DNA of 16,562 nt from Clostridia bacterium (GTDB lineage: Bacteria; Bacillota_A; Clostridia; Christensenellales; Borkfalkiaceae), in NCBI GenBank assembly GCA_017457015.1, contig JAFTIG010000070.1:1-16562 (forward strand). Direction: 5' to 3'. The position numbers and the translations under genes were made by a program. Below the pieces are notes generated by a model, which was not told the DNA's origin, searched no databases, and saw nothing but the letters and a program-made list of their open reading frames with translations. This document shows, one piece after another, positions 1-16,562 of this stretch; position 1 is the stretch's first letter; the number at the start of each line of letters is the position of its first letter.

Positions 1-120
1 ACTCCGCTTGGGTAATATTTTAAGGTTTAAATACAAGCAGGCGTGACGCCTGTCACAAGTTGACCTCTTGTGTTGTTATTATTTTATAACCCAGAACTCT
101 CAAACTATATTAGAGTTACA
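1..120 (+). repeat. Partial copies of the structured intergenic repeat (unit A and tail of an earlier unit)
   Basis: No gene is visible here. Bases 1-25 resemble 182-205: both have ACTCCGCT, then a short variable stretch, then TTTAAGG. Bases 1-20 therefore look like the tail of a unit that begins left of the window. From 21 a new unit starts with the family's 5' signature (TAAGGTTTAAATACAAGCAGG). It contains a perfect 6-bp hairpin with a TGA loop (38-43 with 47-52), a second 6-bp hairpin (54-59 with 67-72) and a weaker one (95-100 with 112-117). It lacks the usual 3' closing strand, so it is a partial or strongly diverged copy. Confidence 0.45.
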
Positions 121-198
121 TTTTAAGGTTGTATAAACGAGTTAGGCAAGGCTCGTAAGCGTGACGCTTAACCCTAACTTAACTCCGCTCGTGCACTA
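121..198 (+). repeat. Partial copy of the structured intergenic repeat (unit B)
   Basis: This copy opens with the same 5' arm as the full copies (AAGGTTGTATAAACGAG from 125). It has CGAG pairing with CTCG at 152-155 and a 5-bp hairpin with a TGA loop (157-161 with 165-169). The latter matches the 6-bp TGA-loop hairpin of unit A in shape but not in stem sequence. A longer stem GTTAGG / CCCTAAC encloses it. The unit ends with the ACTCCGCT tail and runs directly into unit C, so the 3' closing arm is missing. The units form a head-to-tail tandem arrangement. Confidence 0.45.
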
Positions 199-320
199 TT
201 TAAGGTTGTATAAACGAGCAGGTCAAGGCGCGTGAGTACTGTGACGGGGCGCGTACGTCTGTACATAACCCGAACAGCACGGAACGCAACGTAGAGATGC
301 GAAGTTTAGACGACCTTAAA
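199..320 (+). repeat. Full-length copy of the structured intergenic repeat (unit C)
   Basis: The terminal helix pairs 199-215 with 304-320. Its core AAGGTTGTATAAAC / GTTTAGACGACCTT has one A-G mismatch and one T-G wobble, and is identical to the core of the copy at 14816-14942. Inside is a hairpin 236-246 with 256-264 (GTAC and GACG segments), then a 3' segment containing CAGCACGGAACG. It lacks the TGAGATTGACC module of the two other full copies, so it is a divergent subtype. The A-run at its 3' end doubles, on the minus strand, as the T-run of the spoIIID terminator. No known RNA family is recognised. Confidence 0.5.
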
Positions 321-357
321 AAAATTAACGCCCTAACCTAAATGCAAGGTAAGGGCG
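318..357 (-). terminator. Intrinsic terminator downstream of spoIIID
   Basis: A stem pairs 329-339 with 347-357 (CGCCCTAACCT with AGGTAAGGGCG, one A-A mismatch, 7-nt loop). On the minus strand it is followed by TTAA and seven T residues. It lies about 105 nt past the spoIIID stop. The intervening 3' region holds smaller hairpins at 371-386 (CAAGGC/GCCTTG) and 422-439 (AACCT/AGGTT), and an 8-bp inverted repeat CTTGTATA/TATACAAG at 383-390 and 453-460. Confidence 0.65.
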
Positions 358-726: not shown

Positions 727-757
727 AACTACTATCCCCCTTTTTATAGAATAGTAA

Positions 758-784
758 ACTTTATGCTCCGTTTCGACAAATTAT
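758..784 (-). promoter_or_regulatory. Candidate sigma-E promoter of spoIIID with an embedded Spo0A-box-like octamer
   Basis: On the minus strand ATAAT (780-784) is followed after 14 nt by CATAAAGT (758-765). This resembles the sigma-E pattern (ATA-type -35, CATA-type -10) and its usual spacing. It would start transcription about 25 nt before the TTG codon. The octamer TTGTCGAA (772-779), identical to the core of the Spo0A box, lies between the two elements. The match is from memory of the consensus. Confidence 0.5.
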
Positions 785-791
785 TACAAAT

Positions 792-817
792 AAAAAAGGA
801 CTGAAGTCAGTCCTTTA
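792..817 (-). terminator. Intrinsic terminator of the his operon, overlapping the PAP2 stop codon
   Basis: On the minus strand the stem GGACTG / CAGTCC has an ACTT tetraloop, extended by AAA/TTT pairs, and is followed by TTTTTTATTTG. The TGA stop of the PAP2 gene (807-809) lies within the stem, so termination occurs immediately after translation ends. Confidence 0.8.
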
Positions 818-2866: not shown

Positions 2867-2876
2867 AATTTCACCT

Positions 2877-4965: not shown

Positions 4966-5552
4966 TAAAGCACCCCTTTAGTAGACGGTACTTCACCATT
5001 AAGCGACGGATCTATCGCCACAGCCGCCTTTAGAGTTCTTGCAAGCGACTTAAACGTTCCTTCTATTATGTGGTGTGCGTTCGAGCCTGCTATTTGGCGC
5101 GCGTGTAGAGTTATTCCCGCGTTAGAAACGAAAGCGATTAAAAACTCTTCTAAAAGTTCGGTATCGAAATCGCCTACCTTATTAGCCTTTATATCAAACT
5201 CTTTTACGATAAAACTTCTACCAGATACGTCAACCGCAGTCAAAATTAGCGATTCGTCCATAGGTAAAATAGTACTTGCGTAACGGGTTATGCCCTTCTT
5301 TTCGCCAAGTGCGTCCTTAAAGGCTTGACCGAGCGCGATTGCTATATCTTCGGTAGTGTGGTGATAATCCACGTTAATATCACCCTTACACTTTACCATA
5401 AGGTCAAACCTTGAGTGTTTAGTAAAAAGGTTAAGCATGTGGTTTAAAAAACCGCATCCCGTATCTATTTGCGCCTTACCCGTACCGTCAAGGTTAAGTT
5501 CTAACGCTATGTCCGTTTCGCCCGTAACTCTCTTTATCTGTGCTTTTCTCAT
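4965..5552 (-). CDS. hisB: Imidazoleglycerol-phosphate dehydratase
   Basis: This enzyme dehydrates imidazole glycerol phosphate to imidazole acetol phosphate. The 195-residue protein is the monofunctional form, with no N-terminal HAD phosphatase domain. It has the manganese-binding repeats HHTTED (64-69) and GSNAHHIIE (156-164), plus CGFLNHML (33-40). The ATG directly abuts the hisC TAA. Its 65-residue end, EVPSTKGVL, is the usual IGPD C-terminus. Confidence 0.97.
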   Translation of the reverse strand: MRKAQIKRVTGETDIALELNLDGTGKAQIDTGCGFLNHMLNLFTKHSRFDLMVKCKGDINVDYHHTTEDIAIALGQAFKDALGEKKGITRYASTILPMDESLILTAVDVSGRSFIVKEFDIKANKVGDFDTELLEEFLIAFVSNAGITLHARQIAGSNAHHIIEGTFKSLARTLKAAVAIDPSLNGEVPSTKGVL

Positions 5553-6614
5553 TTATATTTTCTCCAAAATTTCTTTTACCTTTTTAATAAATATTTTCAT
5601 CTGCTCCATACTTCCGATAGTAATACGGATATAGTCCTTAATCCTATCGCTGTCAAAATGGCGCACCAAAATACCCTTTTCTTTTAATCTTAAATAAAGT
5701 TGTTTACCGCCTATTTTATCGGATTTTGCAAAAGTAAAGTTCGCGTTAGACTTATCGAGCGTAAAACCAAGTTTAATAAGTTGGCTTTCGGTATACTCTC
5801 TATTCTCTATAATTTTTTTGCAGTTATCCTTAAAATACGCTTGGTCGGTTATCGCACCCAAACCCGCCGCCGCGCTCATCCTGTTTACGTTGTAAGGGTT
5901 GGTGGAATATTTTACCGTATTTAAGTCTTTTATTATCTCTTTACTTGCCACGCCGTACCCAAGTCTTGCGCCAGCCATTGAGCGTGACTTGGAAAAAGTT
6001 TCGGTCACTAAAAGATTGTCGTATTTATCGATAAGTTTTATCGCACTTTCCCCGCCAAAATCTATATACGCTTGGTCTATAACCACAATCCTATTCGGAT
6101 TTGCTTTAAGCAACCTTTCCACGTCTAAAAGTGGCAATACTTTTCCAGTCGGCGCATTTGGGTTTGCGATAAAAATTACCCCGTCTAAATTATCGTAGTC
6201 GTCTATATTGATAGAAAAATCGTCCTTTAGCGGTATTTCGCGATAAGGCACGCCGTTTACGTCTGCAAATACTTTATAAAATCCGTACGTTATGTCGGGA
6301 AAGTAAGCGGGCTTATCTTTACTGCAATACGCCATAAAAGCAAAATTCAACACTTCGTCAGAGCCGTTGGTAAGAATTACGTTTTCGCTATTAACACCGC
6401 ACGCTTTTGCGACTGCAGCCGTCAACTCTTTGCAATCGGGATCGGGATAAAGATGCAATTTTTGCGATTGCGCCGTTGCAAGTTCTATCGCTAACGTTGA
6501 CGGCGGAAAGGGTGATTCGTTGGTGTTGAGTTTTATATACTCTCGCTCTTTGGGTTGTTCACCCGGAGTATAAGGTTTTAAGTTACCCACTCTTTGGTTA
6601 ATAAATCTGCTCAT
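5553..6614 (-). CDS. hisC: Histidinol-phosphate aminotransferase
   Basis: This is a PLP-dependent class I/II aminotransferase that transfers an amino group from glutamate to imidazole acetol phosphate. The 353-residue protein has the Schiff-base lysine K209 in TFSKSRSMAGARLGYG. It also has NPNAPTG (151-157), the PLP-contacting D180 and Y183 (VIDQAYIDF) and a C-terminal arginine motif (DYIRITIG). HisC enzymes are sometimes broad in specificity and may also act on aromatic amino acids. One base separates it from the hisD stop. Confidence 0.96.
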   Translation of the reverse strand: MSRFINQRVGNLKPYTPGEQPKEREYIKLNTNESPFPPSTLAIELATAQSQKLHLYPDPDCKELTAAVAKACGVNSENVILTNGSDEVLNFAFMAYCSKDKPAYFPDITYGFYKVFADVNGVPYREIPLKDDFSINIDDYDNLDGVIFIANPNAPTGKVLPLLDVERLLKANPNRIVVIDQAYIDFGGESAIKLIDKYDNLLVTETFSKSRSMAGARLGYGVASKEIIKDLNTVKYSTNPYNVNRMSAAAGLGAITDQAYFKDNCKKIIENREYTESQLIKLGFTLDKSNANFTFAKSDKIGGKQLYLRLKEKGILVRHFDSDRIKDYIRITIGSMEQMKIFIKKVKEILEKI

Positions 6615-6615
6615 T

Positions 6616-7887
6616 TTACTTCAATCTTACTACCGCACTCTTTGCGTGTGCGGTAAGTCCTTCTTTCTCTGCAAAATACTCTACGTCTTTTGCTATTTTA
6701 CTTAACGCCTGCTCGGTATAGTAAGCGTATTGCGTTTTCTTAATAAAATCGTCAACGGACAGCGCGCTTGAAAATTTAGCCGTCCCACTAGTCGGTAAAG
6801 TATGATTCATACCTATCATGTAATCGCCGAGTGCTTCGGGACAGTTTCTTCCCACGAATACCGAGCCCGCATGCTTAATTTTATCAAGATACTCTATTGC
6901 ACCGTCAACGCAGAGTTCAAGGTGCTCGGGCGCAATGTCGTTTGCTATCTCTATTGCTCTTTCTATATCTTTTACTATTATTATTTTTCCGTTATCGTCG
7001 ATTGAAATCCTTGCAATCTCCGCTCTCGGAAGGAGTGCTATCTGCCTTTCCAGTTCGCTTTGGACTGCCGTCGCAAGACTTTCGCTCTCTGTAATCAAAA
7101 CTGCCGACGCGAGTTTATCGTGCTCGGCTTGAGAAAGCATGTCTGCCGCCACCACTTCAGGGTTAGACTTTTTATCGGCGATAACCAGGATTTCGCTCGG
7201 CCCTGCAATCATATCGATTGACACCTTTCCGAAAACTTGCTTTTTTGCTTCGGCAACGAACGCATTTCCCGGTCCTACTATCTTATCCACCTTTTGAATA
7301 CTTTCCGTACCGTAAGCGAGCGCCGCAATAGCCTGTGCTCCGCCAACTTTGTAAATCTCGTCCACCCCTGCAACCGACGCCGCCGCCAAAATTACGGGGT
7401 TAACGTTACCGTTTTTATCGGGCGGAGTTACTATTACCACTTTTTTAACCCCCGCTATCTTTGCAGGAATAGCGTCCATAAGCACGGTTGAAGGGTATGC
7501 CGCAGTACCGCCCGGAACGTAAAGCCCCGCTGCGTCTACGGGTATAATTTTTTGTCCAACGATAACGCCGTTTTCACGCTTAAACTCAAAGCCTTCTCGC
7601 TTTTGCTTGCTATGAAATTCTCTGATGTTATTAGCCGCGTCGTTTAATATTCTTAAAAATTCCGGCTCAACGCTTTTTGCAGCCCTATCAATCTCGTCTT
7701 TGCAGACGGCAAGACTATCAAGTTTTACCTTGTCGAACTTTTCGGCGTACTTATAGAGCGCTGAATCTCCGTTCTTTTTTACGTCGTCTATAATCTCCGA
7801 CACTATTAAACTAACGTCAACTTTCGGTTCTACTACCGAAAAAATCTCTTCGCGATTACTTACGCCGTCTTTTAATATCTTTATCAT
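6616..7887 (-). CDS. hisD: Histidinol dehydrogenase
   Basis: It catalyses the last two oxidations, L-histidinol to L-histidine, using NAD and a bound zinc. The 423-residue protein has GLYVPGGTAAYPSTVLM (121-137), GPGNAFVAEAK (205-215) and IAGPSEILV (227-235). The expected zinc ligands are Q253 and H256 (SQAEHD), D355 and H414. The catalytic pair is E321/H322 (APEHLEL). Length is normal. The ATG overlaps the hisG stop by one base (TAATG). Confidence 0.97.
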   Translation of the reverse strand: MIKILKDGVSNREEIFSVVEPKVDVSLIVSEIIDDVKKNGDSALYKYAEKFDKVKLDSLAVCKDEIDRAAKSVEPEFLRILNDAANNIREFHSKQKREGFEFKRENGVIVGQKIIPVDAAGLYVPGGTAAYPSTVLMDAIPAKIAGVKKVVIVTPPDKNGNVNPVILAAASVAGVDEIYKVGGAQAIAALAYGTESIQKVDKIVGPGNAFVAEAKKQVFGKVSIDMIAGPSEILVIADKKSNPEVVAADMLSQAEHDKLASAVLITESESLATAVQSELERQIALLPRAEIARISIDDNGKIIIVKDIERAIEIANDIAPEHLELCVDGAIEYLDKIKHAGSVFVGRNCPEALGDYMIGMNHTLPTSGTAKFSSALSVDDFIKKTQYAYYTEQALSKIAKDVEYFAEKEGLTAHAKSAVVRLK

Positions 7888-8522
7888 TAAACGTTCTCCG
7901 TCTGTTTTTTAAGTTCGGCGATAATATTTTCTATCACGTCGCTTTTGAATTTAAAGTTTGCTTTATTCGCTATAAGGCGCGCCGATATAGGCACGAACTT
8001 TTCCACGACTTCAAGTTTGTTTTCTTTTAGAGTAGCACCCGTTTCCACTATATCCACTATTACGTCCGAAAGCCCTAATATAGGCGCAAGTTCGATTGAA
8101 CCGTTAAGGTGAATTATATCAATATCTCTGCCCTGCGCCGAATAATAGTTTTTTGCAATGCTCGTAAATTTAGTAGCGACTTTAAGAGTTTTTGATCTAT
8201 CGTCAATAAAATCCGATTTTGCAGCAACCGCCATGTGACACTTACCTATACCAAGGTCTAAAAGTTCGTAAACGTCGGGGCGGTATTCAAGCAAAATATC
8301 TTTGCCTGCAACGCCCACGTCAGCCGCACCACGCTCGACGTAAATAGCGACGTCGGACGGTTTTACCCAAAAATATCTTACCCCTACTTCTTGATTTTCA
8401 AATATAAGTTTTCTATTGTTTTCTTTTATAGACGGACAAGGAAAGCCTGCTTTTTCAAACATGCCGTAAACCTTTTCGCCAAGTCTTCCTTTAGGGAGCG
8501 CTACGTTAAGCATAGTTTTCAC
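7887..8522 (-). CDS. hisG: ATP phosphoribosyltransferase catalytic subunit, short form
   Basis: This is the first committed enzyme of the pathway, joining ATP and PRPP. At 211 residues it is the short HisG lacking the C-terminal ACT-like histidine-binding domain, and therefore needs HisZ, encoded immediately upstream. Motifs are ALPKGRLGE (8-16), DVGVAGKDILLE (68-79) and the PRPP loop DVIVDIVETGATLKEN (153-168). The chosen start is GTG 8522, which overlaps the hisZ stop (GTGA) and has AGGAG 7 nt upstream. An in-frame ATG at 8513 is too far from that site. Confidence 0.95.
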   Translation of the reverse strand: MKTMLNVALPKGRLGEKVYGMFEKAGFPCPSIKENNRKLIFENQEVGVRYFWVKPSDVAIYVERGAADVGVAGKDILLEYRPDVYELLDLGIGKCHMAVAAKSDFIDDRSKTLKVATKFTSIAKNYYSAQGRDIDIIHLNGSIELAPILGLSDVIVDIVETGATLKENKLEVVEKFVPISARLIANKANFKFKSDVIENIIAELKKQTENV

Positions 8523-9613
8523 AGTTTTACTCCTTTTCCTAGTTCGATAAGTCTTTTATATTTTGTCTTACAAGGTATTACCTTTTCGGCAATAACGCTC
8601 TCTCCATTTTCGGTTATCTCTTTAACGAGTTTAACGACTTCTTCAATAGGCGCGTCGTTATACTGAATAGCGACGTCCACGCCAGTGTTTACTTCTCCGC
8701 CAAACTTGCCGAGTTCGTCTAGATATACTGCAAAGCCTATCGCTCGCGAATTCTTTTCCATCTTTTCCATAAGATTATCGTATTGACCGCCCGAAAGTAT
8801 ACCCGTAGGAATACCGCTTATAAAGCCCTTAAACACTATGCCGTTATAGTATTTCATATCGCCAGCAACCGAAAAGTCAATCTCAATCTTGCCACTTTCA
8901 CCAAACGCCGAGAGCGCGTCCACTATCGATAGCAGTCTAACGATAGCCAAACGCGTTTTTTCACTGCAACTAATCTCGTCCAATACCTTTTTTACCTTTT
9001 CGGGTTTACCGTAAGTTTTCACGAGTTTAATAAGCGCGTCGGTATCTTCCACCTTTTCCTTTTGACAAACCTGCTCTATTCCGTTTACGTTCTTTTCCGA
9101 AAGGTAATATAAAATTTCCTTTTGCGCGGACAAGGATAGATTAGCATCTTCCATAACCCCTTTTATAACGTCTAAACTAGACACGTCTAAAAGATATTCG
9201 TCGGAAATCCCCTGTAAACTCTTACTCGCAAGATAAAGCACTTCGGTAACGGCGTAATCGTCCACGTCCCCAAGGCACTCTAAACCGACCGGTCTTATTT
9301 CTTTAAAAGATTTAGTACCCTTTGAAACCCTGTATACGTTTTCGTCGTAATACACTTTTTGCAAACCGCCCTGAACGTCCCTGCCGTTTTTGATAATAGA
9401 TAAGGTAACGTCGGGTTTTAGCGCCATAAGCCTACCGTCGGTATCGGTAAAGGTTATAACGTTATCGGACACCAAAAAGTCCTTGTTATTTAAATACAGC
9501 CCGTATTCTTCAAACTTGCTCATCTTATACTGTTTATATCCGTATTTACGATAGAGGGCGCGGAGAGCAAAAACCGCCTTTTCATCACTCCTTAAAACGG
9601 GATCGAAATTCAT
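8519..9613 (-). CDS. hisZ: ATP phosphoribosyltransferase regulatory subunit
   Basis: HisZ is a catalytically inactive histidyl-tRNA synthetase paralogue. It assembles with short HisG and gives it activity and histidine feedback. The 364-residue protein matches the class II synthetase core (MALKPDVTLSI near 65, YYDENVYR near 90, EIRPVGLECLG near 107, and GILSGGQYDN followed by IGFAVYLDEL in the C-terminal half). It ends without a full anticodon-binding domain, as HisZ does. No separate hisS lies here. The ATG overlaps the stop of the preceding regulator gene (ATGA). The length and the neighbouring hisG distinguish it from a true HisS. Confidence 0.93.
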   Translation of the reverse strand: MNFDPVLRSDEKAVFALRALYRKYGYKQYKMSKFEEYGLYLNNKDFLVSDNVITFTDTDGRLMALKPDVTLSIIKNGRDVQGGLQKVYYDENVYRVSKGTKSFKEIRPVGLECLGDVDDYAVTEVLYLASKSLQGISDEYLLDVSSLDVIKGVMEDANLSLSAQKEILYYLSEKNVNGIEQVCQKEKVEDTDALIKLVKTYGKPEKVKKVLDEISCSEKTRLAIVRLLSIVDALSAFGESGKIEIDFSVAGDMKYYNGIVFKGFISGIPTGILSGGQYDNLMEKMEKNSRAIGFAVYLDELGKFGGEVNTGVDVAIQYNDAPIEEVVKLVKEITENGESVIAEKVIPCKTKYKRLIELGKGVKL

Positions 9614-9900
9614 AATTTCTCCTTTTTATCGTTCAGTACGAGCGCGTAACCGCCACTGCCGTAATTAAGGCATTTGTTTACCCTACTTATCGTCGCGGTG
9701 CTAGCCCCCGTTATCTTTGAAACTTCTTGATAATTCTTGCCTGACTTTAAAAGATTAGCCACTTCTAATCTCTGCGTAACGTCTTGTAACTCCTTAATCG
9801 TGCAAACGTCTTCAAAAAATTTGCGGCAACTCTCCTTATCTTTGAGTTTTAACACCGCGTCAAAAAATTCGTCAAACATCGTTATATGAAAATTCTCCAT
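9610..9900 (-). CDS. YerC/YecD-type TrpR-like regulator, probable his operon repressor
   Basis: This is a small DNA-binding protein of the TrpR/YerC fold, about 96 residues from ATG 9900. It shows the family segment FFEDVCTIKELQDVTQRLEVANLL, followed by a helix-turn-helix (YQEVSKITGASTATISRVNKCL) and the GSGGYALVL tail. A GTG at 9906 gives two more residues, but AAGGA is only 3 nt from it and 9 nt from the ATG, so I choose the ATG. It is the first gene of the his operon and is translationally coupled to hisZ. By inference it senses histidine or a pathway signal and represses its own operon through the palindrome at 9925-9954. I recall comparative-genomic work assigning such proteins (called HisR) to his genes in Firmicutes, but the sequence alone does not prove it. 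Confidence 0.85.
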   Translation of the reverse strand: MENFHITMFDEFFDAVLKLKDKESCRKFFEDVCTIKELQDVTQRLEVANLLKSGKNYQEVSKITGASTATISRVNKCLNYGSGGYALVLNDKKEKL

Positions 9901-9924
9901 ATTCACTCGTCCTTACTTTAGTCG

Positions 9925-9954
9925 TTTATCATTTTAGCACGGTAAAGTGATAAA
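9925..9954 (-). promoter_or_regulatory. Palindromic operator overlapping the his promoter
   Basis: A 30-bp palindrome has arms TTTATCATTTTA (9925-9936) and TAAAGTGATAAA (9943-9954) around a 6-bp centre. Only one of twelve arm positions is unmatched. It covers the promoter spacer and the -10 box, and touches the -35, a classic position for repression. The likely ligand is the TrpR-like protein encoded by the first gene. Confidence 0.65.
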
Positions 9955-9959
9955 GTCAA
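9931..9959 (-). promoter_or_regulatory. Sigma-A type promoter of the his operon
   Basis: On the minus strand TTGACT (9954-9959) is followed by a 17-bp spacer and TAAAAT (9931-9936). Transcription should begin near 9924, leaving a leader of only about 24 nt. There is therefore no room for a T-box or attenuator, and control must act at this promoter. Confidence 0.8.
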
Positions 9960-10052
9960 CTGTTTTATATAGGTTGTTTATACATTTTTTAAATTTATGA
10001 AATACTATTACTATAATAAATGACTAATTTATCATTTAGCGTAAAGAGTATT

Positions 10053-10080
10053 ATAAAATAAAAGGGGCAACCTTGCCCCT
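10053..10080 (-). terminator. Intrinsic terminator of the two-gene unit at 10118-10941
   Basis: The stem AGGGGCA / TGCCCCT (10063-10069 with 10074-10080) has a 4-nt loop and on the minus strand is followed by TTTATTTTAT. It separates this unit from the his promoter. Confidence 0.75.
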
Positions 10081-10117
10081 AATAAAATATTAATCTCGAT
10101 TTTATATTATAGCGCGT

Positions 10118-10495
10118 TTAAAATATTACGGTCACTATAAAGATAAGCACGGCTTCAGTAACGATCGGCAAAGCCGTAAGAAGGGCAAATAGTACGATCT
10201 GTGCGACTTTTTCACCCTTATTGCGCCTTATCAAGGTTAAAACTAACCCGATTGCACCGAAAATCGTTGCTACTGCATTAAAAGTGACACCTAGTAAAAT
10301 CAATTCTATAGTAAGAAATACTGCTATCGCAGCGGTACGCTCTGCAGACTTTTCTATGTTGACTGTGCGCGATAATCTGCCGATAAGATAAATATTTATT
10401 GCAAGGTAAATAACCGCCGAAATTATCATAAGTACGGTATATCTTCCACACGGTTTTTTTACTTTTTCCGCACGGTAAAGTTTATTATCTTTCAT
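10118..10495 (-). CDS. Small hypothetical membrane protein, four predicted helices
   Basis: I do not recognise a family. The 125-residue protein starts at ATG 10495 behind GGGGGA. An upstream in-frame extension is possible but would run back into the preceding gene, and it lacks comparable support. A short basic N-terminus (KVKKPCGRY) precedes hydrophobic segments at about 19-39, 53-72, 73-90 and 97-125, with basic loops RRNKGEK (90-96). It lies 17 nt after the cysteine-rich gene and shares its promoter and terminator, so the two products may work together at the membrane. Confidence 0.7.
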   Translation of the reverse strand: MKDNKLYRAEKVKKPCGRYTVLMIISAVIYLAINIYLIGRLSRTVNIEKSAERTAAIAVFLTIELILLGVTFNAVATIFGAIGLVLTLIRRNKGEKVAQIVLFALLTALPIVTEAVLIFIVTVIF

Positions 10496-10512
10496 CTTTC
10501 CCCCTAAACGAT

Positions 10513-10941
10513 TTATTTTATATACTTTTCTGCAATCTCCGCAGCAATACGACACATCTCCGAACAAGGGCGTTTTTTATAATACGCAGCCGTTCTCTCT
10601 TCCGGCACTGGGGAAGTATCACTTGCAGAAAGCGCGTCTAAAAGTTCACCGCAAATAAGCGAACCAGTATACTCTTTAAATTCCGCGCACGCATCCTGAA
10701 TAATTTTATATATTGCAAGTTTATTCACACCGTCCGATTTTAAAGTCGATATTACCATACACATACCGCTGACTGCACCGCAAGTGAGCCTTTGCCTGCC
10801 AAGTCCACCACCGAATCCTATGGACAACTTTTTTAAGGTAATTTCGTCAAGCCCTATTTCATCCTTAAACGCAAGCACAACCGCTTGACAACAATTCATA
10901 CCCGTAGCAAAATTTTCTACTGCTATTTGCCCTTTTCCCAT
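10513..10941 (-). CDS. C_GCAxxG_C_C family putative redox-type protein
   Basis: The 142-residue protein has the spaced cysteines of this family: C17/C18 (GMNCCQAV), C54 in LTCGAVSGM, C61, C97 in SLICGEL, and C126 and C130 near the end. It also has the glycine-rich GFGGGLGRQ stretch. The biochemical role of the family is not settled, although conserved cysteines suggest metal or redox chemistry. Start ATG 10941 follows AAAGGAG by 6 nt. It is the first gene of a two-gene unit with its own promoter. No signal peptide is visible, so it is probably cytoplasmic. Confidence 0.85.
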   Translation of the reverse strand: MGKGQIAVENFATGMNCCQAVVLAFKDEIGLDEITLKKLSIGFGGGLGRQRLTCGAVSGMCMVISTLKSDGVNKLAIYKIIQDACAEFKEYTGSLICGELLDALSASDTSPVPEERTAAYYKKRPCSEMCRIAAEIAEKYIK

Positions 10942-10962
10942 AGTTTTCTCCTTTACGATATA

Positions 10963-10991
10963 ATAATACCATATTTTTACTATTAATGCAA
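10963..10991 (-). promoter_or_regulatory. Sigma-A type promoter of the C_GCAxxG_C_C gene
   Basis: On the minus strand TTGCAT (10986-10991), a 17-bp spacer and TATTAT (10963-10968) are seen, with TGG just before the -10 giving an extended -10. The predicted start is near 10956, about 15 nt before the gene's ATG. Confidence 0.7.
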
Positions 10992-11008
10992 TACCCTACC
11001 GTAAATTT

Positions 11009-11030
11009 GGTCGTTTTCTCTAAAACGACC
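11009..11030. promoter_or_regulatory. Perfect 9-bp inverted repeat upstream of the C_GCAxxG_C_C promoter
   Basis: GGTCGTTTT (11009-11017) pairs perfectly with AAAACGACC (11022-11030) around CTCT. No T-run follows on either strand, so it is not a terminator. It lies 18 bp upstream of the -35 box and may bind a regulator. Confidence 0.35.
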
Positions 11031-11041
11031 GCCCGTAAAGT

Positions 11042-11056
11042 ATAAACACTGTTTAC
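11042..11056. promoter_or_regulatory. Palindromic 15-nt site, copy 1
   Basis: ATAAACACTGTTTAC occurs here and again, identically, at 11237-11251. The core TAAACA-C-TGTTTA is a perfect palindrome. This copy is about 50 bp upstream of the C_GCAxxG_C_C promoter. Confidence 0.4.
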
Positions 11057-11092
11057 ATATTTAAATACGTTAGGCAAAATGCGCAAAACACT

Positions 11093-11219
11093 ACTGAAAG
11101 GTTTAAAAACGAGTTGCAGTATGCTCGACTGCAAAAAGGATGAGATTGACCTTGCTGGTCATCGAAGTCTTTTTTGCAAGGCAGAAACGACCTGAAACGA
11201 AGTTTATAAAATTTTCAGT
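11093..11219 (+). repeat. Full-length copy of the structured intergenic repeat (unit D)
   Basis: The closing helix pairs 11093-11110 with 11202-11219. Its outer part (ACTGAAAGG / TTTTCAGT) differs from the copy at 14816, but the partner strand changes with it. Inside are CGAG/CTCG and an 11-position stem at 11130-11140 with 11168-11178 (TGCAAAAAGGA / TCTTTTTTGCA, one G-T wobble). A 28-nt module at 11141-11168 begins TGAGATTGACCTTG and ends GTCATCGAAGT; TGACC pairs with GGTCA within it. A 3' segment has GCAG-AACGAC. Wobbles pair only in plus-strand RNA. No promoter is evident on that strand directly upstream. Confidence 0.6.
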
Positions 11220-11232
11220 TTAAAATTCAAAA

Positions 11233-11255
11233 AGCAATAAACACTGTTTACTGCT
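11233..11255. promoter_or_regulatory. Extended palindromic site, copy 2
   Basis: A 23-bp interrupted palindrome is built of AGCA, TAAACA, TGTTTA and TGCT blocks. It contains the same 15-nt sequence as 11042-11056. It lies about 20 bp upstream of the strong ribosome binding site at 11274-11280 and could be an operator for whatever is transcribed there. Confidence 0.45.
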
Positions 11256-11283
11256 TCCTGAATAATATATGATAAGGGGGAAA

Positions 11284-11361
11284 ATGATGAGCATTTTTGT
11301 TGTCGTAAGTCGTTATTTCCTTTCGACAATGATACTATACTACATTCGACAAAAAAAGTAA
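11284..11361 (+). CDS. Possible small hydrophobic peptide gene (25 codons)
   Basis: AAGGGGG at 11274-11280 precedes two consecutive ATG codons (11284 and 11287). The second has the better spacing of 6 nt. The open frame ends at TAA 11359-11361. The peptide is hydrophobic in its first two thirds (IFVVVSRYFL, then MILYY) and ends with the basic tail IRQKK. That profile resembles small membrane peptides, including type I toxins. A candidate minus-strand promoter at 11336-11364 would produce RNA antisense to its start region. The same DNA also carries Spo0A-box-like sites, so the frame could be fortuitous. No family is recognised. Confidence 0.3.
   Translation: MMSIFVVVSRYFLSTMILYYIRQKK
11322..11352 (-). 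promoter_or_regulatory. Pair of Spo0A-box-like octamers around a candidate minus-strand promoter
   Basis: TTGTCGAA occurs twice on the minus strand (11322-11329 and 11345-11352), 23 bp apart. A third imperfect match, TTGTCGTA, lies on the plus strand at 11300-11307. Between them TTTACT, a 17-bp spacer and TATAGT form a plausible minus-strand promoter at 11336-11364. One box would then sit in its spacer and one just past its -10, the layout expected for repression. Confidence 0.45.
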
Positions 11362-11671
11362 AGCGTTTTTCACGGGTTTTTAAAAAAATTTTGAAAATTT
11401 TTCACAACTTTTTTTAATATATGGAAAATTATGTTAAATTTTGACACGCAGTGTTAATTTTTAACTAGATTTCTTGACTTTCAAAATACCCTTTTTTGTA
11501 CGTTTTTTAGGGTTTTTAAGGGTAAAAACAGCCAAAAATCGCTGTTTTTCAGCCTTTGAAACTACACTTTAATTCTGCCGTAAAAACTTAAAAAATTAAA
11601 AACAAAAATTAAAAAAATTTTTTATAAATTTTATCTTTTTTCTCTTTTAATAACGAATATCTTAAAAGGGA
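11362..11671. other. AT-rich non-coding stretch with a symmetric hairpin
   Basis: No gene is visible. The stretch is rich in A and T runs. It contains one strong 9-bp hairpin, AAAAACAGC (11524-11532) with GCTGTTTTT (11541-11549), whose A- and T-rich flanks would let it act as a terminator on either strand. It would insulate the lipoprotein promoter from transcription coming from the left. Confidence 0.4.
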
Positions 11672-11700
11672 TTGACAAAAATTGAATTTTGCGCTAACAT
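11672..11700 (+). promoter_or_regulatory. Sigma-A type promoter of the lipoprotein gene
   Basis: TTGACA (11672-11677), a 17-bp spacer and TAACAT (11695-11700) are present on the plus strand. Transcription should start near 11707, about 60 nt before the ATG. Confidence 0.7.
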
Positions 11701-11766
11701 TATATATAATAAATATAAAATCGTTTAGACAGTATTTATACTAATTTTTTATTGACGGGTAAATTT

Positions 11767-12708
11767 ATGAAAAAACTTTTTAAGGCGCTTTGCGCTTGCA
11801 TACTTGCTTTAACTTTGTGCGTTGGCAATCTAGTAGGTTGCAACAATGCTTCAAACGGCGGAGCAAATCAGATACTTAACTTTGACCGTGCCTTTTACTA
11901 CACGGCTATCGGCGGAATAGGCTTGTTTAACTCGGGCATTGAAAATGAAGATTCTATACTTTCTGGTAATTCTGGTTTAGAAACTTATTCAGAAACTGAA
12001 ACGCTTTCTATTCAAGAAGAGAAAAAACTCGTTGCTAACGTTGCAATCGCAGCTAGTACTTTTGACAGAGACGTTGATGATAAAGATGAAAGAAATTCAG
12101 ATAAATCTCCTTACGAACTTACTAAAAAAGTAATAGTATGTCAATCGGGAACTGAATCTACCGAATACGATTTTTATTATAACAAGACGTCTTATAAAAT
12201 TGACGATTCTGGCGATATTAAACTTGACGGTGTCGTTATCGTAAACGGTGACTCGGAAAACATCTATATTATTGAAGGCAAAAAACAAATAGAGTTTGGT
12301 GAAACGGATATAGATATTTTTCTTTACGCCCCCGTTAGAGACGACGACGGCAACGTCGTTCTTGGCTCTGACAATAAGCCGAAACGCGACAACACCCAAG
12401 TTTTTATAGAACAAAAATTCCAAGCAGGTAAACAAGCGTTTAGATATACTTACGACTTTGATGGCGAAAGAATTGTCGAAACGACCGCAGTATACGAAAA
12501 AGTTACGAGCGGAGAAATTGTTCCCTATTTCTTTACGACGTTGGCAGGTAAAACGGTATATTACAACTTTAATTTTATTACTGCAAACGAATTAGTTACA
12601 GCAAACGCGTTTATTAGAGAAAATAACGCCGTTACTGAAGAATTACTTGCAACCGTTACCATCAATCAATCGGGATACACCATCACCTACCCCGCCGAAA
12701 CCATATAA
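11767..12708 (+). CDS. Putative surface lipoprotein of unknown family
   Basis: The 313-residue protein begins with a basic MKKLFK, a hydrophobic stretch and the lipobox LVGC, with C25 as the predicted lipidated cysteine. A Gly/Asn/Ser-rich linker follows. The mature part should be attached to the outer face of the membrane. It is acidic and rich in Thr, Tyr and Asn, with many short alternating hydrophobic stretches that suggest beta structure. I do not recognise a domain. ATG 11767 is preferred over TTG 11752 because it gives a standard signal peptide. The ribosome site is weak (GGGT 9 nt upstream). It is the only large plus-strand gene and is monocistronic, with its own promoter and terminator. 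Confidence 0.8.
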   Translation: MKKLFKALCACILALTLCVGNLVGCNNASNGGANQILNFDRAFYYTAIGGIGLFNSGIENEDSILSGNSGLETYSETETLSIQEEKKLVANVAIAASTFDRDVDDKDERNSDKSPYELTKKVIVCQSGTESTEYDFYYNKTSYKIDDSGDIKLDGVVIVNGDSENIYIIEGKKQIEFGETDIDIFLYAPVRDDDGNVVLGSDNKPKRDNTQVFIEQKFQAGKQAFRYTYDFDGERIVETTAVYEKVTSGEIVPYFFTTLAGKTVYYNFNFITANELVTANAFIRENNAVTEELLATVTINQSGYTITYPAETI

Positions 12709-12734
12709 AAACAAAACCTAATCAACTATAAAGT

Positions 12735-12767
12735 AAAATCCACTAGTCCTTCTAGTGGATTTTTTTA
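12735..12767 (+). terminator. Intrinsic terminator of the lipoprotein gene
   Basis: The stem ATCCACTAG / CTAGTGGAT (12738-12746 with 12752-12760), extended by AAA/TTT, has a 5-nt loop and is followed by a run of T residues on the plus strand. Confidence 0.88.
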
Positions 12768-12794
12768 TGGTTTTATTCAATATAATTTTATAAA

Positions 12795-12833
12795 CAAAAA
12801 ACACACTATACTTCATAACTAAAATATAGTGTG
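12795..12833 (-). terminator. Intrinsic terminator of the rpsB-tsf operon
   Basis: CACACTATA (12802-12810) pairs with TATAGTGTG (12825-12833). On the minus strand the stem is followed by TTTTTTGTTTAT. It lies about 36 nt past the tsf stop. Confidence 0.75.
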
Positions 12834-12869
12834 CATAATTTGTTTTGAATTAAAATAAACCTTAAAAGA

Positions 12870-13763
12870 TTATTTTTTCATTTGAGCGGCAACCTCTGAT
12901 GCAAAGTCGTCGTTTCTCTTTTCTAAACCTTCACCCATTTCAAAACGAACGAAACGTTTGATAGAAAGAGTCTTGCCCATCTTATCGGAATAGGATTTAA
13001 CAACCTTTTCGATATTCATACCGGGATCTTTAACAAAAGCCTGTTTCATAAGACAGTTTTCGTCGTAATATTTGTTGATTTTGCCTTCTACCATCTTTTC
13101 GATAACCTGAGCGGGCTTGTTAGCGAGCTTGGGATCATTTTGGATTTGAGCGAGAAGAATTTCCTTTTCGTGAGCGATTACGTCTTGGGGAACTTCGTCC
13201 GCAACGAGATATAAGGGTTTAGCGGCAGCGATTTGAAGTGCAACGTCGTGTGCGAGTTCTTTTGCTCCGTTACAAGTGCAACCTGCAACTTCTACTAAAA
13301 CGCCAACCTTACCACCCATGTGGATATAACTTTCAACGATACCGTTGTCTGCGGTATATTTTGCGAAACGGCGGATAGCGATCTTTTCACCGATTTTAGC
13401 GGTAGCTGCAACCGTTTCGTCGTTTTTAGCCGCTACGAGTTCGTCAATATCCTTAACGTCGTTATCTAAAACGTATTGTGCAACGCCGTCAACGAAAGCG
13501 ATATATTGATCGCCCTTTGCAACGAAGTCGGTTTCACAGTTTACTTCTACGAGTACGCCCGTATTGCCGTTAACCTTTGCTAATACGATACCTTCTGCAG
13601 CGATTCTGGATGCCTTTTTAGCAGCGGTAGCCATACCTTTTTCTCTCAAAAAGTCAACTGCCTTTTCCATGTCGCCGTTGGTAGCTTCAAGTGCTTTTTT
13701 ACAATCTGCAACGCCTGCTCCAGTCTTTTGACGGAGTTCCATTACTTCCTTACCTGAAATCAT
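12870..13763 (-). CDS. tsf: Translation elongation factor Ts
   Basis: EF-Ts exchanges GDP for GTP on EF-Tu in the cytoplasm. The 297-residue protein has the N-terminal UBA-like domain with the family signature (VMELRQKTGAGVADCKKAL, residues 7-25, then FLREKGMATAAKKASR). The EF-Tu contact segment is recognisable as NCETDFVAKGDQY (about 74-86). A C-terminal dimerisation core follows. Length is close to the Gram-negative form. GGGAG precedes the ATG by 8 nt. It is the second gene of the conserved rpsB-tsf pair. Confidence 0.97.
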   Translation of the reverse strand: MISGKEVMELRQKTGAGVADCKKALEATNGDMEKAVDFLREKGMATAAKKASRIAAEGIVLAKVNGNTGVLVEVNCETDFVAKGDQYIAFVDGVAQYVLDNDVKDIDELVAAKNDETVAATAKIGEKIAIRRFAKYTADNGIVESYIHMGGKVGVLVEVAGCTCNGAKELAHDVALQIAAAKPLYLVADEVPQDVIAHEKEILLAQIQNDPKLANKPAQVIEKMVEGKINKYYDENCLMKQAFVKDPGMNIEKVVKSYSDKMGKTLSIKRFVRFEMGEGLEKRNDDFASEVAAQMKK

Positions 13764-13787
13764 AGTTCTATCTCCCTTTATATTTAA

Positions 13788-14555
13788 TTATTCAGCGTCT
13801 TCGGCTACGGGTGCTTCTTCCATAACCTGTTCAGGTGCAACCGAGTCGTCTTCTTCTACTCTGAATTCTTCGCCTTGGTTTGCTTCAATTACTGCGTTTG
13901 CGATAACCGATGCAATAAGTTTAACCGCTCTGATAGCGTCGTCGTTACCGGGGATAACGTGATCGATTAAATCAGGATCACAGTTGGTATCGGTGATTGC
14001 TACGATCGGGATGTTAAGATCTCTTGCTTCTTTAACTGCAATGTCTTCTGCTACAGGGTCTACGATAAACATAAGACCGGGAAGAGTTCTCATATCCTTG
14101 ATACCGCCAAGGTTTGCTTCGAGTTTATCTCTTTCGATTTTGAGTTTAGATACTTCTTTTTTGGGAAGAAGATCAAACTCACCCATCTTTTCCATATTGT
14201 TGAGTTTGTTAAGTCTGTCAACTCTGGATCTGATAGTCTTAAAGTTGGTGAGCATACCGCCGAGCCATCTCTGGTTAACGTAATACTGACCGCATCTTTC
14301 AGCTTCTTCTTTAATAGCGTCTTGAGCCTGCTTTTTAGTACCTACGAAAAGTACGCTCTTACCCTGTTTAGCCATTTCTACTACAAAAGGATAAACGTCG
14401 TTTTCGATAAGTTCAACGGTCTTTTCAAGGTTGATAATGTGAATACCGTTTCTTTCACCAAAAATGTACTTCTTCATCTTCGGATTCCAACGTCTGGTTT
14501 GGTGACCGAAGTGTACGCCCGTTTCAAGGAGCTGTTTCATTGTAATAACTGCCAT
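13788..14555 (-). CDS. rpsB: 30S ribosomal protein S2
   Basis: S2 binds the small ribosomal subunit late in assembly and is needed to recruit S1-like functions. The 255-residue protein starts [19 protein letters not shown] and has [35 protein letters not shown] and the [20 protein letters not shown] motif. The acidic C-terminal tail ([17 protein letters not shown]) is longer than in Bacillus. ATG 14555 is chosen because GGAGGT lies 7 nt upstream. The longer open frame back to 14648 has no such site and no family similarity. It is cotranscribed with tsf. Confidence 0.97.
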
Positions 14556-14671
14556 AAAATTTACCTCCGTTATTCCTCCCCGCGCCGTCTTTTTTAGGGC
14601 AACATTTCCGCCGATAGATAATTTTTTGCGGAAACACGTAAGCCCCACGACAATCGGGTGCGAATTTTTGC
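14556..14671 (-). promoter_or_regulatory. Structured rpsB leader (candidate autoregulatory 5' UTR)
   Basis: The predicted 115-nt leader folds into two clear stem-loops on the minus strand: GTAAGC/GCTTAC (14670-14675 with 14638-14643) and TTTCCGC/GCGGAAA (14628-14634 with 14605-14611). S2 leaders are feedback sites in several bacteria. The match here is by position and structure only. Confidence 0.4.
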
Positions 14672-14677
14672 TTACCT

Positions 14678-14706
14678 ATTTTAGCACAAAACGCTATATT
14701 AAGCAA
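14678..14706 (-). promoter_or_regulatory. Sigma-A type promoter of rpsB-tsf
   Basis: On the minus strand TTGCTT (14701-14706), a 17-bp spacer and TAAAAT (14678-14683) are seen, with TGC before the -10 as an extended -10 element. Confidence 0.75.
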
Positions 14707-14755
14707 ACGTTTTTACGCGTTTTTTAAAGATTTTTATATATTGTTACGCATCCGC

Positions 14756-14789
14756 GCATGAAAAAAGAGTAGCGACCTTTCACTACTCT
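14756..14789 (-). terminator. Intrinsic terminator of the rpsF-ssb-rpsR operon
   Basis: AAAGAGTAG pairs with CTACTCTTT (about 14764-14772 with 14783-14791), and on the minus strand the stem is followed by TTTTTTCATG. It lies about 155 nt beyond the rpsR stop; the structured repeat unit E fills most of that gap. Confidence 0.75.
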
Positions 14790-14815
14790 TTAATTTGTTG
14801 GTTTTATTTAATACG

Positions 14816-14942
14816 TTTTAAGGTTGTATAAACAAGCAGTGCTAGGCTCGCGAAGTGTTTGGGGTGAGATTGACCTTGTTTGTCATCGAAGTCCAAACAC
14901 TAAGCAGTAACGACGCAATGCGACGTTTAGACGACCTTAAAA
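14816..14942 (+). repeat. Full-length copy of the structured intergenic repeat (unit E)
   Basis: The closing helix pairs 14816-14833 with 14925-14942: eighteen positions, one mismatch, one T-G wobble. Within it a perfect 9-bp stem AGTGTTTGG / CCAAACACT (14854-14862 with 14893-14901) encloses a 28-nt module at 14865-14892 that differs from unit D at only two positions. Then comes a 3' segment with GCAGTAACGAC. The stem sequence is unrelated to the equivalent stem in unit D, yet both pair. The element ends three bases before the rpsR stop codon and lies antisense to that operon. Confidence 0.65.
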
Positions 14943-14945
14943 AGA

Positions 14946-15251
14946 TTATTCACCCTTAAAAGGCAACAAGTCAACCAATCTTGCACGTTTGATAGCTTTT
15001 GCCAAAACTCTTTGGTGTTTTGCACAAACGCCGGTCATACGTCTGGGGAGAATTTTTCCGCCTTCAGTGATGTACTTCTTCAAAGTGTTGATATCTTTAT
15101 AGTCGATAGTTTCAACTTTGTTTTGGCAGAAAGCACAAACCTTTTTACGGGGAATTCTCTTAACAAATTTTTTAACTTCTTTAGGCTGAACGGGTGCGGC
15201 TTCTGCAGCAGCGGGAGCAGCCTGAACGGTTACGTTGGTATTTTCTTCCAT
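14946..15251 (-). CDS. rpsR: 30S ribosomal protein S18, zinc-ribbon form with N-terminal extension
   Basis: S18 pairs with S6 on the platform of the small subunit. The core (about residues 30-101) is typical: [34 protein letters not shown]. It carries C39 and C42 (VCAFCQ) with C76 and H79 (VCAKHQ), the cysteine-containing form expected to bind zinc. The Bacillus protein lacks most of these residues. About 25 extra N-terminal residues, rich in Ala, Pro and Val, are likely flexible. It is the last gene of the rpsF-ssb-rpsR operon. Confidence 0.95.
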
Positions 15252-15284
15252 TATTATACTCCTTAAAAAATCGTGCTGAAATTC

Positions 15285-15695
15285 TTAAAACGGCAACTGA
15301 TTATCGTCGATTGCTTCAAGTTGAGGTCTTTCCCTTCTTGAAGAAACTACGGGCGCGTCGTCTATTTCGGACTGCGCGTTTTTAGGTGTTAAGAATTCCA
15401 CTTCGTTAGCAATAACGTCGGTAACGTTTCTCTTAATACCGTCCTTATCTTCATAAGAACGGTTTTGAAGGCTACCAACTATTGCGACCTTATTACCTTT
15501 TTTCAGATATTTACCGCAAACTTCTGCTCTACCACGCCAAACGGTAATATTGAAAAAATCCGTTTCACGCGTACCGTCAGCCGCCGCGTAATCTCTCGAT
15601 ACAGCAATAGCAAATCTACATACCGCAACGCCACTTGGGGTTTCGGTAAGTTCAGGATCGCGAGTTAAATTTCCTACTAAGATAACTTTGTTCAT
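15285..15695 (-). CDS. ssb: Single-stranded DNA-binding protein
   Basis: SSB coats single-stranded DNA during replication, repair and recombination and recruits partner proteins by its acidic tip. The 136-residue protein has the OB-fold start MNKVILVGNLTRDPEL, then TDFFNITVWRGRAE and GSLQNRSYEDKDG. It has a short linker and the conserved C-terminal tip DDNQLPF. AGGAG lies before ATG 15695. It sits between rpsF and rpsR, the common arrangement, 14 nt after the rpsF stop. Confidence 0.97.
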   Translation of the reverse strand: MNKVILVGNLTRDPELTETPSGVAVCRFAIAVSRDYAAADGTRETDFFNITVWRGRAEVCGKYLKKGNKVAIVGSLQNRSYEDKDGIKRNVTDVIANEVEFLTPKNAQSEIDDAPVVSSRRERPQLEAIDDNQLPF

Positions 15696-15709
15696 AAATT
15701 TTCTCCTAC

Positions 15710-15991
15710 TTAAATCTTGGTGATCAATCTTCTGATGATACCGTCTGTAATGCCTACGATACGTTTGATTTCAACGACGAGCGTTTTAGCCGCTTCGAAC
15801 GTCATCAATACGTAGTAACCTTCGGACTTATAGTTAATCGGGTATTGCAATTTTCTCATACCCCAACGATCGGTCTTTTCTACAACACCGCCGTTTTTAC
15901 TAACCAAATCCTCGATTTTCTTAATTATCCCGTCTTTAGCTTCGTCAGAAAGAGAAGCGTCGAGAATATAAAGCATCTCGTATTTCGTCAT
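15710..15991 (-). CDS. rpsF: 30S ribosomal protein S6
   Basis: S6 forms a heterodimer with S18 on the 30S platform. The 93-residue protein is full length, beginning MTKYEMLYILDASLSDE and containing VEKTDRWGMRKLQYPINYKSEGYYVLM, the usual S6 signature, and ending with IVGITDGIIRRLITKI. GGAGGT lies 8 nt before ATG 15991. It is the first gene of the operon and is preceded by a structured leader that probably binds the S6:S18 complex. Confidence 0.96.
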   Translation of the reverse strand: MTKYEMLYILDASLSDEAKDGIIKKIEDLVSKNGGVVEKTDRWGMRKLQYPINYKSEGYYVLMTFEAAKTLVVEIKRIVGITDGIIRRLITKI

Positions 15992-16008
15992 GATTTTTTA
16001 CCTCCCGG

Positions 16009-16066
16009 ACTTATTCGGCTTGCCTTTAAGCAAGCAAGGTTTTTTTACGGCAAAATTGCCATAAGT
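16009..16066 (-). promoter_or_regulatory. S6:S18-type ribosomal protein leader
   Basis: On the minus strand ACTTAT/ATAAGT (16061-16066 with 16009-16014) closes a structure. It contains a hairpin GGCAA/TTGCC and a second stem CTTGC/GCAAG (16030-16034 with 16019-16023). The trinucleotide CCG (16016-16018) is left between the stem and the closing helix. A bulged CCG next to such a stem is the recognition feature of the known rpsF leader bound by S6:S18, mimicking its 16S rRNA site. The first gene and last gene of this operon encode the two proteins. Confidence 0.7.
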
Positions 16067-16072
16067 TCCATA

Positions 16073-16101
16073 ATGATAACAAAATTTGCATCTTTTGTCA
16101 A
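16073..16101 (-). promoter_or_regulatory. Sigma-A type promoter of rpsF-ssb-rpsR
   Basis: On the minus strand TTGACA (16096-16101), a 17-bp spacer and TATCAT (16073-16078) are seen. The predicted start falls at the 5' edge of the S6:S18-type leader. Confidence 0.85.
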
Positions 16102-16160
16102 TTATTTTTTATAAATTTTATTATTTTTATATTATTTTATTATATATATTAAAGATTTCC

Positions 16161-16562
16161 CTACGCCGTCGGATTAATGATATAACTGAGCGGTAAAGTT
16201 TTAAACTCTTGTTTTACTCCGTCCGCAGTAAATATACCTGCGTCGATAAACTGTTGCATCCTTGCACTAGTCAAAACGTCTTTTATTGTAGTTGAACTCT
16301 CTAACGACTTAACTGTAAAATCAGATATAACGTATTTTTCCGGTCTTCCGTCCGTATCAACCCACTCTCCTTCATCTTCAATCCCGTTTCCGTTTCCATC
16401 TATCCATATGTCTTCAAAACCAACGCCCTTAAAGCACAAGAGTAGCCAAATACCGTCGTCTTTATGGATATAGTAAGTATCTTTTTCTTCAACCACTTGG
16501 TCGGTGATATGTACGAACGCGTTTTCATTAGTATCCAAATAGAACTTATAATCGGTCGTAAC
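16161..16562 (-). CDS. 3' part of an unidentified protein, cut by the window edge
   Basis: The frame is open from the right edge to TAG at 16161-16163, giving 133 C-terminal residues. A TTG at 16538 is in frame, but nothing suggests it is the true start. The segment is acidic and contains IDGNGNGIEDEGEW (aspartate/asparagine/glycine loop), a pattern like calcium-binding loops in bacterial surface proteins. I cannot name a family. It ends PLSYIINPTA. No terminator hairpin is seen before the rpsF promoter, only a very AT-rich stretch of about 60 bp. Confidence 0.6.
   Translation of the reverse strand, partial: VTTDYKFYLDTNENAFVHITDQVVEEKDTYYIHKDDGIWLLLCFKGVGFEDIWIDGNGNGIEDEGEWVDTDGRPEKYVISDFTVKSLESSTTIKDVLTSARMQQFIDAGIFTADGVKQEFKTLPLSYIINPTA

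Follow-up and report, generated by a model that had tools for sequence, protein, structure and literature searches.

We analysed a 16,562-nt stretch of DNA from a Clostridia bacterium (assembly GCA_017457015.1, contig JAFTIG010000070.1, positions 1 to 16,562; hereafter the window), which carries three full copies of a hairpin repeat of about 125 nt together with fragments of it. The 3' end of the copy at 14816..14942 lies 3 nt from the stop codon (14946-14948) of a minus-strand gene that we take, from its protein sequence, to be rpsR. The copy at 11093..11219 is intergenic, between divergent open reading frames (ORFs) and with no stop codon adjoining. Scores are those of a covariance model, R1, built from 20 copies (alignment A2) that include these two window copies and not the one at 199-320; A2 omits copies misaligned by MAFFT, near-duplicates, and hybrid or truncated copies (L010, L023 and L025). 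The features of the window are as follows.

14816..14942, plus strand: full element with interior type 1; R1 score 131.6 bits, training-set member
14862..14893, plus strand: apical module GAGATTGACC..GTCATCGAAGTC of the copy at 14816..14942; direct repeat family D7
11093..11219, plus strand: full element with interior type 1; R1 score 106.6 bits, training-set member
11138..11169, plus strand: conserved apical module of the copy at 11093..11219; direct repeat family D7
198..321, plus strand: full element with the same ends and interior type 2 (GCGTAC..GTAC stem); R1 score 48.8 bits, E 9.9e-10
117..155, plus strand: isolated 5' part of the element; direct repeat family D1
about 17..45, plus strand: probable further 5' fragment, TTTTAAGGTTTAAATACAAGCAG, by eye only

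Because the copy at 198..321 lies outside the R1 training set, its score is an independent match, whereas the scores of the other two copies are not independent. Interiors like its own occur at G006 C15:9536 and C15:198832. The isolated part at 117..155 may be read as an older remnant to the left of this full copy. Beyond the rpsR element, positions 14761-14795 form a hairpin between an A run and a T run, by eye a possible two-way terminator, and terminator-like hairpins of a similar kind stand beyond a number of elements in relatives.

The initial annotation had described two structured copies of about 125 nt in this DNA. Both are present and fold far better than their dinucleotide shuffles (z of -4.29 for 11093-11219 and -5.78 for 14816-14942, with 0/200 shuffles equalling either). 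They share the internal module that it pointed out, 91% identical over 32 nt (D7), and their inner stems and closing helices differ in sequence with pairing kept, again as described. The third copy, placed at 199-320, also folds well against dinucleotide shuffles (z of -4.88) and has the same ends around another interior; R1 locates it at 198-321.

Across the family the element is one long stem, made up of P1 (~13 bp), P2, P3, P4 and an apical module, with conserved bases in the internal loops. GCTCG, GAGATTGACC..GTCATCGAAGTC and AG.AAC are nearly or fully invariant and the stem sequences vary; the apical module was the search key, and its invariance is therefore partly by construction. Several interiors occur on common ends, namely the GAGATTGACC module, the GCGTAC..GTAC stem, and TTTA/TTAG..TAAA/CTAA variants. 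At an L10-like gene end the interior is of the GTAC type in genome G001 and type-1-like in G003 and G014, and the element ends seem to be the constant unit.

An alignment of 106 distinct rows (genomes G001, G003 and G014) has 93.8% of its cells paired and both-side changes in 37/40 pairs. Its covariation score of 0.433 compares with 0.127 after shuffling (0/500 shuffles) and at most 0.093 after sliding; because the rows were fitted to the model, these values are biased in its favour. RNAalifold, applied to 25 rows aligned by MAFFT with no structure fitting (A1), predicts 40 pairs, 28 of them with both-side changes. The dispersed family with compensatory changes that had been proposed from the window was thus recovered, and it is far larger than the window showed.

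The same annotation held that wobble pairs in the helices work only in plus-strand RNA and that covariation indicates selection on RNA. The claim on wobble pairs is weakened, as the excess of G-U over A-C is only 54 to 30 and the minus strands also fold significantly (z of -3.20 for 11093-11219, with 1/200 shuffles as good, and -5.26 for 14816-14942). The full count for the 106 distinct relatives, which sets aside one constant G-U pair (97 cells), is 54 G-U, 30 A-C and 216 other mismatches against 3575 Watson-Crick pairs; acceptor stems of the 23 tRNAs of the fetched loci, a small control, have 10 G-U in 161 pairs and no mismatch. Between rows that are 90-99.5% identical, the inner helices show 58 double Watson-Crick changes, 8 G-T, 7 A-C and 25 other mismatches, and P1 shows 10 double Watson-Crick changes, 2 G-T, 2 A-C and 48 other mismatches, the row pairs not being independent of one another. 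The dominance of mismatches in P1 tells against its instant repair. Template switching is able to create and maintain perfect stems, according to excerpts of PMC8794818. Because wobble pairs are few and template switching is a source of perfect stems, we do not take the covariation as proof of RNA. Paired changes made at the DNA level by template switching fit the pair-change counts at least as well as RNA selection does, and the step from covariation to selection on RNA was not upheld.

A scan of GTDB contigs with the apical-module pattern returned 30 stretches in 11 assemblies, all of them metagenome-assembled genomes (MAGs) of Clostridia or Clostridiales and 6/11 labelled goat, sheep or yak gut. 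The covariance-model search for further copies that had been suggested with the initial annotation found R1 matches in 11/11 of these module-selected genomes (1 to 90 per genome, 420 summed; best 150 candidates scored each), in 17/41 genomes around G001, in 53/297 genomes of the order (best 11 candidates scored each) and in 15/391 genomes of the class (best 8 candidates scored each). Searches over 40 genomes used stricter filters, and the genome counts are therefore lower bounds; the weakest matches, at 33-40 bits, are in part putative. Sixteen of 18 copies from the order measure 124-130 nt (the others are L258, 116 nt, and L250, 188 nt), and 11 class-level copies measure 124-128 nt. The repeat is thus short and dispersed, has paired termini as palindromic repeats do, and carries no gene; its length of mostly 124-130 nt excludes one of any size inside. 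Isolated halves in the pooled loci number 63 of the 5' type and 31 of the 3' type.

Several variants accompany the standard form. The 188-nt copy (L250:201-388, genome G062) has extra internal sequence, and two more of similar length occur in G062:C3. Head-to-tail arrays of 2-3 elements with ~122-162 nt spacing are found at L018:2692-2947, L008:18-268, L108:17096-17528 and L115:9036-9421. The copies at L010:3660-3788, L023:6199-6328 and L025:727-856 are 5'-truncated or hybrid, their 5' part being other DNA or another subfamily.

Rfam 15 gave four matches to the window, none reaching the gathering score. For 20 of the 27 loci L244-L270 it gave one sub-threshold match and no element match at the gathering score; a true 5S rRNA was recognised in L270, outside the element. 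The repeat thus has no match in Rfam, in line with the initial annotation, which could assign it to no known class. No further copies, weak covariation or a direct Rfam match had been named as outcomes that would count against the proposal, and none of them came true. Our literature searches returned no description of the family; a human-microbiome catalogue of thousands of candidate structured RNAs (PMC8040213) may hold it as an unnamed motif. Two exact element patterns had 0 matches in viral_contigs and blastn with two elements had no match in phages or plasmids, and carriage by phages or plasmids was rejected on these results.

The position of the repeat relative to genes was scored on 149 copies (93/107, 33/37 and 23/31 from three match lists, with weak, partial and edge-cut matches omitted), using ORFs from a simple longest-ORF script with no gene caller. 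The nearest ORF on the 3' side converges on the element in 133 copies, diverges from it in 11 and is missing in 5. The converging stop lies at -20..+10 nt of the element 3' end in 85/149 copies. Distances have modes at -6 (32 copies), 0 (17), -16 (10), +1 (9) and -1 (7), and larger ones occur, for instance, in members of tandem arrays and in copies behind terminator-like hairpins among the matches listed. The junction of class -6 reads NNN-TAA|. In the class -16 cases looked at (acyl-CoA synthetase and Tgt) the junction is the gene's own ..TTATAA or a similar end, and some class -16 copies among the matches listed have ordinary P1 stems through which the ORF reads. The rule recurs in 14/18 copies from the order and at 8/11 loci at class level, where one of the three remaining loci is masked past the element. 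The class-level junction reads TA[AG], and the stop in L266 is TAG. Judged by C-terminal sequences, the abutted genes presumably encode relatives of GapA, Tgt, acyl-CoA synthetase, the ribosomal proteins S7, S14, S13, S18, L1, L10 and L32, NrdD, PurF and DnaK, and rpsR also ends with an element in G001, G003 and G014. We know of no other bacterial repeat family that respects gene ends so exactly.

The repeat is equally constrained in its strand; this rule and the stop-codon rule were unexpected and lay beyond the reach of the initial annotation. In 145/149 copies at 90 loci the structured strand is not the G-rich one but its complement, a count in which copies on one contig are not independent, and the same is true of 79/79 where the absolute GC skew exceeds 0.06. 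The exceptions are L175 and L216 (skew near zero), L220:16077 and L137. On the 337-kb contig G006:C15, where GC skew is negative throughout, 24/24 matches are on the plus strand and the ORFs number 231 on the minus and 69 on the plus strand. A replication-strand bias of this kind is expected of the REP and IS200-IS605 class. Abutted genes (at least 100 aa, element -30..+45 nt from the stop) are leading in 81 cases and lagging in 0, compared with 1408 and 358 overall (Fisher p 1.4e-8; counted at loci whose absolute GC skew is at least 0.03). The abutted genes are presumably highly expressed, and the strand rule may therefore partly reflect expression.

Related genomes provide sites that lack the element. 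For 63 abutting-gene queries, which are not independent as several come from one locus, a homolog of at least 45% identity was present in another fetched genome in 50 cases, and 30/50 lack the element somewhere; at 70% identity or more, 18/44 have an element-free homolog. The clearest empty site is rplA, which in G003 is occupied right behind the TAA and in G001 has the TAA followed by downstream DNA, with both flanks aligning; the ~50 nt beyond the element include an apparent older 5' remnant. Most other empty sites align only from further downstream. At L189:13890, where the site is occupied, the protein stops 1-2 residues short of its relatives. Two acyl-CoA synthetase-like paralogs of G001 (L174:12330 and L174:17189) have an element at the stop of one and not of the other.

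Cores at the same locus (0.719, n=74, one duplicated copy removed; 0.724, n=79, with that copy) are only slightly closer than cores at different loci (0.70 within one genome, n=901; 0.68 between genomes, n=4099), and vertical descent of the core was rejected. A recombination tract was also rejected: when genes of 900 nt or longer are considered, tails show no clear excess of similarity over bodies (22 vs 174 genes; 501/5000 permutations). In the first 250 nt of flank, G004 and G007 agree at 0.910 on the 3' side (n=9) and 0.798 on the 5' side (n=6). This 3'-side likeness comes from 5 genes vs 122 controls and is weak in G006; over ten ordered genome pairs it recurs significantly in eight, the two G006 pairs being the others. 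Since gene tails are not clearly more alike than bodies, we take it to be a property of the genes.

Where the element abuts a gene, the P1 arm next to that gene includes host sequence, either the last codon and TAA or ~13 nt of the gene end. In class -6, the far arm matches the three bases before TAA at 0.83, 0.90 and 0.57, against 0.73, 0.58 and 0.24 when shuffled (p of 0.029, 0.0005 and 0.0015), and the match falls to background level beyond the last codon; the comparison covers 30/32 class -6 copies (two dropped for poor end alignment) and 141/146 in all. In the acyl-CoA synthetase copies, P1 pairs the native end of the gene, AAGAAACAAGTTA, with a near copy of that end. Four G001 loci whose cores share at least 92% identity (single linkage) each have a different, self-complementary P1 stem. 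Part of the outer stem thus seems to be built from the last bases of the host gene. Selection for the stem after landing is a possible source of the far-arm match, as is gene conversion that exchanges cores between loci. The flanks are inverted (NNNTAA / TTAN'N'N') and not direct, and the empty sites are too diverged for a base-exact far junction. Many flanks lack TTAA, and behind acyl-CoA synthetase there is instead an inverted match of 13 nt, for which reason a terminal TTAA target duplication was rejected as a general rule.

Together, our direct results on the family, its structure, the stop-codon and strand rules, the empty sites and the matching of the arms probably reflect a new clostridial family of small hairpin DNA repeats, dispersed and non-autonomous, that are mobilised in trans and often land behind the stop codons of leading-strand genes; a small mobile element of this type was one of the options raised by the initial annotation. 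Copies would spread to new sites, often directly behind the stop of a leading-strand gene, with the structured strand reading against the gene. The far arm of P1 would come to match the host-derived near arm, most simply through fold-back (template-switch) copying, and older copies would remain as 5' fragments. From these features we infer movement in trans, template switching, and a step on single strands that is coupled to replication or transcription. A more specific scheme, which we put forward tentatively and at less than even chances, is that a putative enzyme inserts the structured single strand exactly behind leading-strand stop codons during replication or transcription and that fold-back synthesis copies the gene's last bases into the other arm. 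Each copy would then remake its outer stem from the landing site, and the RNA-like covariation would be largely a product of DNA template switching and not of RNA selection.

Several observations weigh against mobilisation in trans to gene ends. The converging stop is beyond -20..+10 nt in 64/149 copies, the window copy at 11093 included. At the GapA, Tgt, rpsR and acyl-CoA synthetase loci several genomes have the element, which means that some of the insertions are old or that the site was used more than once. Each species is represented by a single genome, and movement within a species was accordingly not seen; comparison of flanks demonstrated no target duplication. No mobiliser was found among four enzyme families tested in these genomes, which as MAGs may be incomplete: RVT_1 (3/33 genomes; G012, G019 and G031, all carriers) and Y1_Tnp (8/33) do not track copy number, and the TnpB zinc ribbon and IS110 Transposase_20, which would mark TnpB omega-RNA and IS110 bridge-RNA elements, are each found in 0/26. 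Y1_Tnp occurs in the element carriers G004, G006, G018, G020 and G025 and in G022, G026 and G027, which have no element match; it was not found in the carriers G001, G002, G003, G005, G007, G009, G014 and G016. Reverse transcriptase, Y1, TnpB and IS110 were accordingly rejected as mobiliser, none tracking the element across the genomes searched. Phage_integrase, the domain of tyrosine recombinases, is present in 22/26 genomes and is uninformative, also as to integron attC. A longer version with the same ends was not found in the pooled loci, the search covering these and not whole genomes; of 164 end pairs there, 162 are spaced 60-159 nt, one 221 nt and one over 6 kb.

The stop-codon rule could also arise if the repeat were a cis-acting RNA of the 3' untranslated region, a hairpin retained behind the stops of conserved, perhaps highly expressed genes that stabilises or processes the mRNA, its spread being secondary or ancient. 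Abutted genes are indeed more conserved than controls in ten ordered genome pairs, significantly in eight (for example 0.855 vs 0.781 for G003 v G001), although neither G006 pair is significant (458 and 641 of 5000). They appear, from their C-terminal sequences, to include ribosomal proteins, GapA and DnaK, and the window element sits between the rpsR stop and what by eye is a terminator-like hairpin. We nevertheless consider such an RNA unlikely, because element-free homologs are as common as given above (30/50 queries, and 18/44 at the higher identity), 244/297 genomes of the order have no match (best 11 candidates scored each), some copies adjoin no gene, the strand opposite the mRNA folds better, if anything, and one locus has a GTAC-type interior in G001 and a type-1-like one in G003 and G014. 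Elements of IS200/IS605 insert beside a short AT-rich target. A non-autonomous relative of these or of REP/RAYT, moved by a Y1 HUH transposase as single-stranded DNA of the lagging-strand template and inserted 3' of TTTAA, would account for the strong strand bias, the hairpin form and the junctions after (T)TTAA seen in many copies among the matches listed; IS608 and ISDra2 use the lagging template, according to excerpts of PMC6006769. This origin is improbable in view of the occurrence of Y1_Tnp in 8/33 genomes and in none of the eight named carriers (MAGs may be incomplete), of the single closed 125-nt stem in place of subterminal hairpins, and of the class-level junction TA[AG] with its TAG stop in L266.

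Spread at the RNA level, in which a reverse transcriptase would prime at the stop codon and turn the plus-strand structured RNA into DNA, appears very unlikely. Such an enzyme, which a group II intron or other retroelement would also call for, is found as RVT_1 in 3/33 genomes and in none of the copy-rich G001, G002, G003, G014 and G016; isolated 5' halves outnumber 3' halves, the opposite of what 5' truncation would produce; and wobble pairs are few. It would fit the slight plus-strand G-U excess (54 to 30), the 5'-truncated appearance of L010 and L023, and the fact that all three RVT_1 genomes are element carriers.

Copies sampled across a class show the gene-end rule, and the fixed strand offers a test of insertion at replication forks. 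The family also carries a warning: RNA structure is commonly held to be proved by covariation, for much of which DNA-level copying may here be responsible. Reaching 90 matches in one genome of ~1.4 Mb, the repeat may influence how numerous conserved mRNAs of these gut Clostridia end on the 3' side.

Among known systems, IS200/IS605 derivatives share the replication-fork strand bias, as excerpts of PMC6006769 describe it; the hairpin repeat differs in having no subterminal hairpin pair, and Y1_Tnp and the TnpB zinc ribbon were detected in 8/33 and 0/26 genomes here. REP and REPIN sequences with TnpA-REP (RAYT) are, in the same excerpts, high-copy extragenic hairpins with proposed single-stranded DNA movement in trans, which the hairpin repeat resembles; REPINs, GTAG/CGTC repeats and TnpA-REP are the subject of PMC3116915, PMC3733652 and PMC8266576. 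REP, however, is 21-65 nt with a 5' GT[AG]G guide (PMC6006769, in excerpt), whereas the hairpin repeat is mostly 124-130 nt, and a Y1 domain was not found in 25/33 genomes searched here. Miniature palindromic repeats (ERIC/IRU, RUP, Correia/NEMIS, RPE and YPAL) are small, non-autonomous and mainly intergenic sequences of ~100-200 bp, according to excerpts of PMC2229807, five rows of whose table give a target duplication in three cases and a question mark in two; none was demonstrated here. Like them, the hairpin repeat is dispersed and forms one long stem-loop from paired ends. Unlike them, it abuts stop codons, keeps a near-absolute orientation to the replication strand, takes its outer arm from the host, and combines several interiors on the same ends with covarying stems that are recognisable across a class.

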